From Dyella nitratireducens (GTDB taxonomy: Bacteria > Pseudomonadota > Gammaproteobacteria > Xanthomonadales > Rhodanobacteraceae), in the NCBI RefSeq assembly GCF_014642835.1, contig NZ_BMJA01000006.1:124001-188000 (forward strand): 64,000 nucleotides of DNA, written 5' to 3'. Below the pieces are notes generated by a model. The model searched no databases, was not told where the DNA came from, and worked only from the letters and a program-made list of their open reading frames with translations. Positions within the stretch are counted from its first letter, which is position 1; each line of letters begins with the position of its first letter. Both the position numbers and the translations under genes were made by a program. Below are positions 13,205 to 19,780 of this stretch, piece by piece.

Positions 13205-13213
13205 GGACGTCTT

Positions 13214-13290
13214 CGCCGAGGGGCGCTGCGACCGTAGGGAACTGCTACGGCCAGGCTCGGTGGATGCCTCGAATGCAACGGCGCTCATGA
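13214..13290 (+). promoter_or_regulatory. S-adenosylhomocysteine (SAH) riboswitch of ahcY
   Basis: The leader matches the SAH riboswitch pattern. P1 is formed by CGCCGAG and CTCGGTG. The conserved core is GAGGGGCGCTGCGACC. The P2 hairpin pairs CCGTAG with CTACGG, and is followed by CCAGGCTCGG. After a joining segment, AACGGCGCTCA supplies the pseudoknot strand GCGCTC, which pairs with GGGCGC. This class binds SAH and turns on SAH recycling genes, consistent with the downstream adenosylhomocysteinase. Confidence 0.93.
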
Positions 13291-13306
13291 CGCGATTCCG
13301 CGTCGG

Positions 13307-13356: not shown

Positions 13357-14790
<1,434 letters not shown>

Positions 14791-17211: not shown

Positions 17212-17285
17212 CGTAGGTTGGGGTGCAAACCCCAACATTGCCGTATCTTTAGCACCCGATGTTGGGGTTTGCACCCCAACCTACG
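17212..17285. repeat. Double-hairpin palindromic repeat (intact copy)
   Basis: This 74-bp copy has outer arms CGTAGGTTGGGGTGCAAACC and its inverse. The CTA at 17281-17283 in the right arm is the TAG stop of the amino acid permease on the minus strand. Confidence 0.9.
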
Positions 17286-18633
17286 CATTCGCGCGCTGCC
17301 GGCTCCACCAGCGCCACAACGCATACACCGGCACACCCAGCACGATGATCACCAAACTCATGCCGGCATCACGCGGTGTGCTGATCACCGTCGCAGCGAT
17401 CACACCCAGCACCGTCGCCACGAACACGAATGGCAACACGGGATAAAGCGGCACGCGATAAGGCGAACTCTGTGCACCGAACTGTCGGCGGTACCAGAAC
17501 AAGGTGGCGATGCCGAAGGCATGGCCCAGCCATTCGCCGACGGTGGTGTAGTTGACCAATGAATCGAAGGTACCCGTGACGATCAGCACGATGGCCCAGA
17601 GGCCCAGCACGCCCAACGCAACTTGCGGTGCACGCCAACGTGCGTCGATTTGCCCCACCGAGCGGAAGAACATGCCATCCGCACCCATGGTCTGCAGCAC
17701 GCGCGCGCCACCAGCAATGGCGATGCTGCAATAGCCGAAGGTGGAGCACGCGATGCCAATGGCCATGATGGTGGCGCCGCGCGGCCCGAAGATGCTGCTC
17801 ATCAGATCCGCCGCCGGCGCCTTGCTGGCGGCCAAGCCTGCATGGCCCAGGCCCACGAGGTAGGCGATGTTCGCCAGCACGTAGCAAACCACCACACCGA
17901 CCAGACCCAGGGTGAGTGCGCGCGGCAAGGTACGCTGCGGATCGCGCACCTCGCCCGCCATGTCGTTCAAATAGTGGAAACCGCCGTAAGTAAACAGCAC
18001 CGGCAATACCGCGCCGATCCATGCGCCTGCGGATACGTGCACCGTCGTATCCACGGCCAGTACGCCGCCAAAGTGCCCATGCGCCAGTACCAGGCCAACC
18101 ACCAGCAGCATGCTGATCGCCGCCAGTTTCAGCAGCGTAAACACGTTCACCAGCCAAGCACCGGCGCGAACGCCGAACAGATTGACCCCGACGATGAAAA
18201 AGATCGCACCCGCCGCAACCGGCTTCACCCATGGGGCAGGCAAGCTTGTGGCGCGGCAGAAGTAATCGGCAAACGTCACAGCCACGGCTGCGACGCTACC
18301 GGGATAGTTGATCAGCGCCATGGTCCAGCCGAACAGAAACGCCGGTAGTGCACCGAAAGCTTCGCGCAAATAGAGATAGATGCCGCCGGCCTGCGGACGC
18401 CGCGCACCCAATTCGGCGTAGCACAGCACACCGGCCAGCGTGAGCAGGCCGCCCAATACCCATAGCGCGAGTAATGGCAAGCCGGATCCGGTGCGCTCGG
18501 CAACGGTCGCTGGCGTGCGGAAGATGCCGCTGCCGATCACGCCACCGACCACGATGGCGGCGCCGCTCCACATACCGAGGCGACGCAGATAGGAAGAGGA
18601 TGAGGAGGTTTCGTCGGTCATAGATGCCGACAT
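17281..18633 (-). CDS. Amino acid permease, APC superfamily
   Basis: This inner-membrane amino acid transporter has about 12 membrane segments. The first contains the APC substrate-binding motif GGVIGSGIFRTPA. LCYAELGARRPQAGGIYLYL (TM3 region) and YGGFHYLNDMAGEVRDPQRT (TM6-TM7 loop) are also family-typical. From the start at 18633 it is 450 residues. The frame remains open to 18771, but the extra residues are hydrophilic and unlike the family. ATG 18621 is a second candidate. It is transcribed divergently from the ATP-grasp gene. Its stop codon comes from the palindromic repeat. Confidence 0.85.
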   Translation of the reverse strand: MSASMTDETSSSSSYLRRLGMWSGAAIVVGGVIGSGIFRTPATVAERTGSGLPLLALWVLGGLLTLAGVLCYAELGARRPQAGGIYLYLREAFGALPAFLFGWTMALINYPGSVAAVAVTFADYFCRATSLPAPWVKPVAAGAIFFIVGVNLFGVRAGAWLVNVFTLLKLAAISMLLVVGLVLAHGHFGGVLAVDTTVHVSAGAWIGAVLPVLFTYGGFHYLNDMAGEVRDPQRTLPRALTLGLVGVVVCYVLANIAYLVGLGHAGLAASKAPAADLMSSIFGPRGATIMAIGIACSTFGYCSIAIAGGARVLQTMGADGMFFRSVGQIDARWRAPQVALGVLGLWAIVLIVTGTFDSLVNYTTVGEWLGHAFGIATLFWYRRQFGAQSSPYRVPLYPVLPFVFVATVLGVIAATVISTPRDAGMSLVIIVLGVPVYALWRWWSRQRANA

Positions 18634-18723
18634 TAACCTGAGATGGCACCGGATGTCCGGTGACCTTTGCCCTATGCGACCGACCGGCAGCCGATCCCGG
18701 ACGATGCAATGACCTAAGTCACG

Positions 18724-18753
18724 TTGACACTTCAAAAGAAGGTCCCGGATACT
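18724..18753 (+). promoter_or_regulatory. Predicted sigma-70 promoter of the ATP-grasp gene
   Basis: A consensus -35 TTGACA (18724-18729) is followed after 18 bases by GATACT (18748-18753). Transcription starting near 18760 would include the whole riboswitch-like leader. Confidence 0.55.
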
Positions 18754-18792
18754 CGCCACGTCACGCGCCATGACCCGCTACGCTGGCGCATC

Positions 18793-18887
18793 GGCCCCGA
18801 GGGGTGCTGCGACGGACGCCAGTCCGCCACGCTCGGGCCGCCGACCCAACCCTGTTCAAGGGCGCCCACCTCAATGATGTCGAGGTG
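18793..18887 (+). promoter_or_regulatory. SAH-riboswitch-like leader with Shine-Dalgarno-sequestering hairpin
   Basis: This leader keeps the SAH aptamer layout seen at ahcY. P1 pairs GGCC(C)CGAG with CTCGGGCC (18832-18839). The core GAGGGGTGCTGCGAC differs at one base. The P2 hairpin is CGGAC-GCCA-GTCCG. The pseudoknot GGGTGC (18802-18807)/GCGCCC (18862-18867) is retained by a different set of pairs, including one G-U. One conserved base differs (CCACGCTCG instead of CCAGGCTCG). Downstream, CACCTC (18867-18872) pairs with GAGGTG (18882-18887), which contains the Shine-Dalgarno and overlaps the pseudoknot by one base. That suggests translational control. Ligand identity is inferred. Confidence 0.75.
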
Positions 18888-18892
18888 TCCTC

Positions 18893-19780
18893 ATGTCTTC
18901 TCCGCAATATCGACTTGCCATTGCTTCGTCCCGGGAGTTTTCATCCATCCATATGGATGACGTCTACCTCGTCGCCGTGCTCGAGCTACTTGGCATAGAA
19001 CCCACCGTTTGCGTCTGGAACGATCCTGATGTGGATTGGACGGCTTTTGATGCCGTATTGATACGCACCATCTGGGATTACTTCGAGCACTACGCCGCAT
19101 TCCTTGCTTGGACACATACGCTGGATCGGCTTGGCGTCACGGTCATCAACGACACGAAGATGCTGCGCTGGAATGGCGACAAGCGTTATCTGCTGGATCT
19201 CGAACGACAAGGTGTTCCGATCATTCCAACCCGTGTGGCGCATGGCGACGCGTTGCACGCAGTGCTGACGTCCATGGCCGATCAGGATGTGGTGACCAAG
19301 CCTACGGTGAGCGGTGGCGCGTGGCATACCGTGCGCGGCAAAGTTGGCACGGTGGATTTTGAACAGGCACTCGCGCGATTGCCGAAACAACTGGACTATC
19401 TCGTGCAGCCATTCGTGCCCGAGGTCGCGAGTCATGGCGAATGGTCGCTATTGTATTTCGGCGGCGCCTATAGCCATGCCGTGCTAAAACGCCCAACCTC
19501 CGGTGACTATCGCGTGCAGGAACAGCACGGCGGCATCATCAAGCCGGCGACACCGGATGACGCCATGGTTGCCGCCGGAAGCAGAACCTTGGCGGCGGTT
19601 GCCGCACTAGGCCATCAGGCGCCGATCTATGCGCGCGTGGATGGCGTGGCGGTGGATGGCCAGTTCCTGATGATGGAACTGGAAGTGATCGAACCATCGC
19701 TGTTTCTGGCGGAGAGGCCGGATGCTGCGGAGCGGTTTGCGCGGTTGCTGTTGGAACGATTGCAAACACTTACGTGCTGA
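18893..19780 (+). CDS. ATP-grasp domain ligase, RimK-like, product unknown
   Basis: This 295-residue protein has the three parts of an ATP-grasp fold. There is a pre-ATP-grasp alpha/beta domain (1-90, IRTIWDYFEHYAAFLAW), an ATP-binding lid with the conserved lysine in VVTKPTVSGGAW (~125), and a catalytic region with metal-binding MMELEVIEPSLFLAER (~262-277). Such enzymes form amide or peptide bonds through acyl-phosphates, and relatives include RimK and DcsG-like ligases. The substrate is unknown. It is a single gene behind an SAH-riboswitch-like leader, which suggests a role when SAH accumulates, perhaps in sulfur amino acid or thiol metabolism (inference). AGGTG precedes the ATG. Confidence 0.8.
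   Translation: MSSPQYRLAIASSREFSSIHMDDVYLVAVLELLGIEPTVCVWNDPDVDWTAFDAVLIRTIWDYFEHYAAFLAWTHTLDRLGVTVINDTKMLRWNGDKRYLLDLERQGVPIIPTRVAHGDALHAVLTSMADQDVVTKPTVSGGAWHTVRGKVGTVDFEQALARLPKQLDYLVQPFVPEVASHGEWSLLYFGGAYSHAVLKRPTSGDYRVQEQHGGIIKPATPDDAMVAAGSRTLAAVAALGHQAPIYARVDGVAVDGQFLMMELEVIEPSLFLAERPDAAERFARLLLERLQTLTC

Follow-up and report, generated by a model that had tools for sequence, protein, structure and literature searches.

The leader of an ATP-grasp ligase gene in this genome is probably a translational SAH on-switch, in which one base pair of the ligand pocket is flipped to C30-G46. We infer SAH as the ligand, the on direction and the reaction of the enzyme. In the proposed mechanism, the aptamer and its pseudoknot would form as SAH builds up, and the 3′ strand of the pseudoknot would be withdrawn from a hairpin at the ribosome site, allowing the ligase to be translated. 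SAH would then turn on two loci in the genome. One is ahcY, whose product degrades SAH; the other is the ligase, whose substrate upon the build-up of SAH or homocysteine is probably an amino acid or an amine, perhaps joined through gamma-glutamyl chemistry.

The Rfam model of the SAH riboswitch, RF01057, matches positions 18793-18874 on the + strand over its entire length (model positions 1-78 of 78), with a score of 40.9 bits (gathering cut-off 37, E 0.00038). The gap between the match and the ATP-grasp gene is 18 nt. In the window (the whole 64 kb stretch of DNA that was analysed), the only other Rfam match above gathering is the leader of ahcY itself, located about 5.6 kb away (57.3 bits), and a search of the whole 5.68 Mb genome finds these two leaders and no other SAH matches at E ≤ 0.001. 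The original prediction had placed P1, the core, P2 and the pseudoknot of a SAH aptamer at these positions, and all of the parts are present there. The pseudoknot, which was proposed to be kept by changed pairs (GGGTGC/GCGCCC), can be read directly in the sequence (18802-18807 with 18862-18867) and has two-sided changes in the alignment described below. A second model, R1, made from flipped aptamers, scores 18795-18867 at 69.5 bits, with this sequence being itself among the 25 training sequences of R1.

The positions in the aptamer are numbered as in the Ralstonia aptamer structure (PDB 3NPQ). The features of the region are as follows.

13212-13293 (+), companion SAH riboswitch of the usual G30-C46 form, preceding ahcY (13357-14790)
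18724-18753 (+), predicted sigma-70-type promoter-like site: TTGACA (18724-18729), 18-nt spacer, GATACT (18748-18753)
18793-18874 (+), SAH-type aptamer (RF01057 match)
18795-18801 (+), P1 5′ strand, positions 1-7, pairing with 18832-18838; the five inner pairs are conserved and the two outer ones vary
18802-18807 (+), pseudoknot 5′ strand GGGTGC, positions 8-13
18808-18810 (+), core U14 G15 C16
18813-18826 (+), P2 hairpin CGGA-loop-TCCG, with two-sided changes at all four pairs
18829-18831 (+), A29 C30 G31; C30 (18830) is the deviating base and pairs with G46 (18860)
18832-18838 (+), P1 3′ strand, positions 32-38
18858-18861 (+), A44 A45 G46 G47; G46 pairs with C30
18862-18867 (+), pseudoknot 3′ strand GCGCCC, positions 48-53
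18867-18887 (+), hairpin CACCTC/GAGGTG pairing with the ribosome site, arms 18867-18872 and 18882-18887, predicted at about -8 kcal/mol
18893-19780 (+), ATP-grasp ligase gene, 295 aa, DcsG-like

The numbering was compared with the residues G15, C16, A29 and C46 as they are named in the available text of PMC7057144. That text names G15 and C16 as ligand contacts in the SAH aptamer, and the adenine base is contacted by G15, C16 and A29.

The leader is found in front of many orthologues of the gene, in several genera. Some match to the ATP-grasp protein is present in 173 of the 233 genomes of the family, and the 81 loci that score above 300 bits (in 80 genomes, all fetched) were used as the orthologue set. 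The leader is located upstream of 58 of them. RF01057 matches at E ≤ 0.1 lie directly 5′ of the gene at 58 loci in the 80 genomes, 35 above the cut-off and 23 below it. Three Lysobacter orthologues, with roughly 53% identity, also have the leader. Among 80 loci from named records, it is found within 300 nt of the gene in 24 and is absent from 55, and one upstream sequence is too short. The 55 leaderless loci consist of all those from Kribbella and Bacteroidetes and eight others, seven of them in Rhodanobacteraceae. A promoter-like site is also conserved; the best promoter score per upstream stretch has a mean of 10.6 for the 58 leaders and 7.6 for mononucleotide shuffles.

Covariation was examined in an alignment of 35 rows (25 flipped and 10 ahcY aptamers), chosen for diversity from a pool of 58 ATP-grasp leaders, 8 other flipped leaders and 69 ahcY leaders. 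In this alignment 97.8% of the paired cells can form pairs, as compared to 27-46% when the partners are slid. Two-sided changes are found at 12 of the 18 pairs in P1, P2 and the pseudoknot, which supplies the covariation in relatives that had been looked for. None of 500 shuffles matches the alignment on any of five covariation measures; the shuffles ignore kinship, which the slid structures account for. Positions 30 and 46 form a Watson-Crick pair in every row (25 CG, 10 GC, no mismatches).

The core and the pseudoknot are nearly invariant across the 58 loci, and the loops vary. The residues at positions 14-16, 29, 31, 44, 45 and 47 are retained in 57 or 58 of the 58 ATP-grasp leaders. U14, G15 and C16 are present in 57 of these and in all 69 ahcY leaders, the exception (in genome G071) having one extra base and being read out of register. 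P1 is shorter than in the ahcY leaders, and its two outer pairs (1-38 and 2-37) are often not formed. The leader belongs to RF01057 by its gathering score, the covariation of P1, P2 and the pseudoknot, the conserved core and the Watson-Crick pair 30-46. It is similar to known members in P1, P2, the pseudoknot, the core letters, the length and the position ahead of a gene.

There are differences from RF01057, however. The ATP-grasp leaders have C30-G46 in place of G30-C46, U11-G50 in place of C11-G50 (56 of 58 leaders) and a shorter P1, and their target lies outside the SAM cycle: the downstream gene encodes the ATP-grasp protein instead of an enzyme that recycles SAH or methionine. In CCACGCTCG, the deviating base is C30. 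At its partner, position 46, a G has replaced the usual C, so that the deviation is one half of a compensated flip of the pair, and the letters of the usual SAH-riboswitch form are not found here. C30-G46 is present in all 58 ATP-grasp leaders of the family and G30-C46 in all 69 ahcY leaders. The latter comprise the leader in the window and 68 of 70 fetched SAH matches away from the ATP-grasp gene (two could not be parsed); in 68 of 68 fetched leaders an AhcY frame begins 4-97 nt 3′ on the same strand.

Among the Rfam SAH matches fetched phylum-wide, 66 of 69 were parsed with a structural finder in which the bases at 30 and 46 are unconstrained (L323, at 33.6 bits and below the cut-off, L324 and L328 were dropped). 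Every one of the 66 has G30-C46. The same finder, run on the upstream sequences of the 81 ATP-grasp orthologues, reads C30-G46 in 57 and gives no acceptable match in 24. It produces 10 matches in five mononucleotide-shuffled windows (both strands). Since it is unspecific alone, the finder was applied just to short stretches around Rfam matches or upstream of genes.

Flipped aptamers are also found in front of other genes. A pattern search across the order (398 genomes) matched 88 genomes; 30 rows were examined as fetched loci, the rest were judged by eye, and many of the matches are due to chance. In two genomes (G018 and G273) a flipped aptamer precedes a gene for a MOSC-domain protein (Pfam E 3.9e-17 and 5.2e-15). 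The G018 protein has matches at E ≤ 1e-20 in six of 250 genomes, and a leader is present at three of these loci (G273, G242 and G267) and not at the other three (G263, G288 and G316). All four MOSC leaders that were read (loci L283, L285/L288, L289 and L291) have C30-G46. In all four, pseudoknot pair 8-53 is A-U, and in one of them pair 10-51 is A-U as well. Rfam performs poorly on the MOSC leaders, scoring G018 at 37.2 bits, G267 at 30.0 and G273 at 27.9 and giving no match at E ≤ 1 for G242. These four leaders were used in training R1, so their R1 scores prove nothing. A class-wide pattern search (369 genomes, 10 matched) gave 10 fetched loci outside the window, and in none of them are the four inner P1 pairs and the six pseudoknot pairs all present; these are therefore chance matches.

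Model R1 was then run on nine genomes of the family of G273 (f12). Eight were matched, all with C30-G46, the aptamer preceding a MOSC gene in two of them and ahcY in six. The six ahcY leaders, none of which had been used in building R1, score 32-53 bits. The first long frame downstream is AhcY in five of the six, and the sixth (L383) was placed at AhcY by tblastn. All six AhcY proteins share 77-79% identity with that of the window over 477 residues. The ahcY leaders of G018, G209, G263, G450 and G460 have G30-C46. Because six ahcY leaders lack it, G30-C46 is the usual form of the pair and not a defining one.

These aptamers bear directly on the ligand. The original prediction had noted that one conserved base differs and that specificity may have shifted. 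The differing base was confirmed, and the shift was not, as the same flip is found on ahcY in six of nine f12 genomes; it is thus poor evidence for a change in specificity, and SAH is probably still the ligand there. From sequence comparison, SAH is probably the ligand of the flipped aptamers throughout. A broader reading, which we put forward only tentatively, is that C30-G46 marks a subclass of SAH riboswitches for an unrecognised pathway (the ligase and the cyclotransferase partner described below, and the MOSC protein elsewhere) that handles SAH, homocysteine or a related adenosine compound. The flip would then tune the pocket to that compound, or to a range of SAH different from that of the ahcY switch.

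A complete switch of ligand, with the ATP-grasp and MOSC leaders sensing another adenosine compound that has a different tail, is unlikely in our view. It was favoured at first as the main reading, and was lowered after the C30-G46 aptamers before ahcY were found in f12. C46 is described in the available text of PMC7057144 as touching the amino-acid tail of SAH, so that its change here could alter the affinity, and a ligand switch has to be considered seriously. It would agree with the fixation of the flip in the 58 ATP-grasp and four MOSC leaders, its absence from the 69 ahcY leaders and the 66 parsed phylum-wide matches, and target genes that lie outside the SAM cycle. There is also a precedent in the SAM-I variants that sense spermidine (PMC10853860), which, as described there, likewise differ little from a known aptamer and occur at unusual genes. 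In that case, however, the ligand switch was shown experimentally, and here the comparison is one of sequence, with the flipped form also present on ahcY. Moreover, the residues that contact the adenine (G15, C16 and A29; PMC7057144, available text) are retained.

With SAH as the probable ligand, the direction of the switch depends on the expression platform. The original prediction was that the hairpin CACCTC/GAGGTG hides the ribosome site and overlaps the pseudoknot, so that ligand binding could free translation. The hairpin does pair with the ribosome site; the overlap in this genome is a single nucleotide, C18867. The proposed release of translation is supported by the predicted folds of relatives. 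Over 52 distinct platforms, the hairpin has a mean z of -2.1 for its stability relative to dinucleotide shuffles, with 46 of the 52 below -1. A ribosome-site motif was located in 56 of the 58 leaders, and at least three of its four bases are paired in all 56. The GCG of the pseudoknot strand often pairs near the start codon in the folds of relatives. In 42 of the 52 platforms the minimum-energy fold takes at least three pseudoknot nucleotides, which makes hairpin and pseudoknot exclusive. The ligand should therefore turn translation on, the direction for this genome being taken from the predicted folds of its relatives.

With only one shared nucleotide, the hairpin and the pseudoknot could nearly coexist in this genome, the predicted stability of the hairpin going from -7.8 to -5.3 kcal/mol without C18867. 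The leader could on this basis be a real copy of the SAH riboswitch that acts as an off switch or a weak one, with the ligand perhaps stabilising the hairpin by stacking. We consider this quite improbable given the exclusive states in most of the platforms. There is very little chance that the leader is a copy of the ahcY leader that has lost its function and is decaying: it does score below that leader (40.9 and 57.3 bits), and 23 of the 81 orthologues have no recognisable leader, but its core and pseudoknot hardly vary among the 58 loci, with compensatory changes and a conserved promoter-like site.

The control of the ATP-grasp gene is dispensable, as the 23 orthologues without a leader show. 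One of these (in G177) has no upstream contig sequence, and decayed remnants of the leader can be seen by eye at several, for example in G174 and G101. At three loci from relatives of Rhodanobacter (L078, L079 and L093), the aptamer looks decayed by eye, and what persists is a promoter-like site with TTGACA and the last part of the pseudoknot strand.

The enzyme is predicted to have the ATP-grasp fold. A Pfam search with the protein gave no match. The best NCBIfam match is DcsG (NF058666, residues 8-291), which scores 192.9 bits where the cut-off is 360, and the best match in the PDB is also DcsG (6jil, phmmer E 4.2e-37). By the NCBIfam standard the ligase is thus not the same enzyme as DcsG. 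D-cycloserine synthesis was considered as its role and was dropped, the DcsG score being far under the cut-off. The AlphaFold model of the ligase has a pLDDT of 95.3. A Foldseek search with this predicted structure finds DcsG first (TM score 0.85), followed by ArgX/LysX, RimK and glutathione synthetase. DcsG, the D-cycloserine synthetase, shares the fold, although the ligase is only 33% identical to it in the structural alignment. The glutamate ligases RimK and LysX/ArgX and glutathione synthetase have the superfamily fold as well (TM score roughly 0.7-0.77), but with 13-19% identity and weak NCBIfam scores. Membership in the ATP-grasp superfamily is supported by the fold and by Asp250, Glu262 and Glu264, which are invariant in 39 sequences and are the putative metal-site acids of the superfamily.

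A gamma-glutamyl cyclotransferase (GGACT) domain (PF06094, E 4e-10) is fused or adjacent to the ATP-grasp protein in eight genomes among the fetched loci. It is fused in G164, G161 and G183 (loci L017, L024 and L077) and located just 3′ of the ATP-grasp gene in G197, G207, G200, G170 and Lysobacter enzymogenes (loci L021, L080, L092, L095 and L200). In the window, a divergent amino-acid permease gene is found at 17281-18771 (-). Neighbours were counted at 32 loci treated as Rhodanobacteraceae, including the window, with open reading frames passed through a GC3 filter and with some flanks short. Such a permease cluster is present at 25 of the 32 loci and a dinB-type cluster near the ATP-grasp gene at 23; these conserved neighbours indicated no pathway at the 32 loci. 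From the predicted fold and the neighbours, the chemistry of the ligase is perhaps that of amino-acid or gamma-glutamyl ligation.

The targets of SAH riboswitches listed in the available text of PMC4239095 are ahcY, metF, metH, COG1189, PF04020 and COG1385. The ATP-grasp gene is absent from the targets named there, in keeping with the original proposal that it would be a new member of the regulon. SAH riboswitches and ATP-grasp proteins were not found together in the open-licence papers searched, nor was anything recognisable as this leader, and a report elsewhere is possible. The class is called exclusive to SAH recycling in the available text of PMC9971707, a rule that the conserved copies on ATP-grasp and MOSC genes break. 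The ATP-grasp leader may point to an undescribed part of SAH metabolism, and SAH-type leaders give these two uncharacterised enzymes a metabolic address. In addition, nature has supplied a variant of the pocket in which a G-C pair is flipped, and this variant lends itself to testing how the amino-acid tail of the ligand is recognised by the aptamer.

A few loci are unusual. Genome G071 has two ATP-grasp paralogues (L004 and L107), each with a leader, and in one of the leaders a pseudoknot strand is irregular (28.7 bits). In a record titled Candidatus Eremiobacteraeota (L166), which is probably a mislabelled bin, the ATP-grasp locus resembles that of Dyella (66% identity) and has a leader. After the leader in G209 (L284) come an open frame of seven codons and an M24 peptidase gene, in that order; the leader is apparently a relic left by the loss of the ATP-grasp gene.
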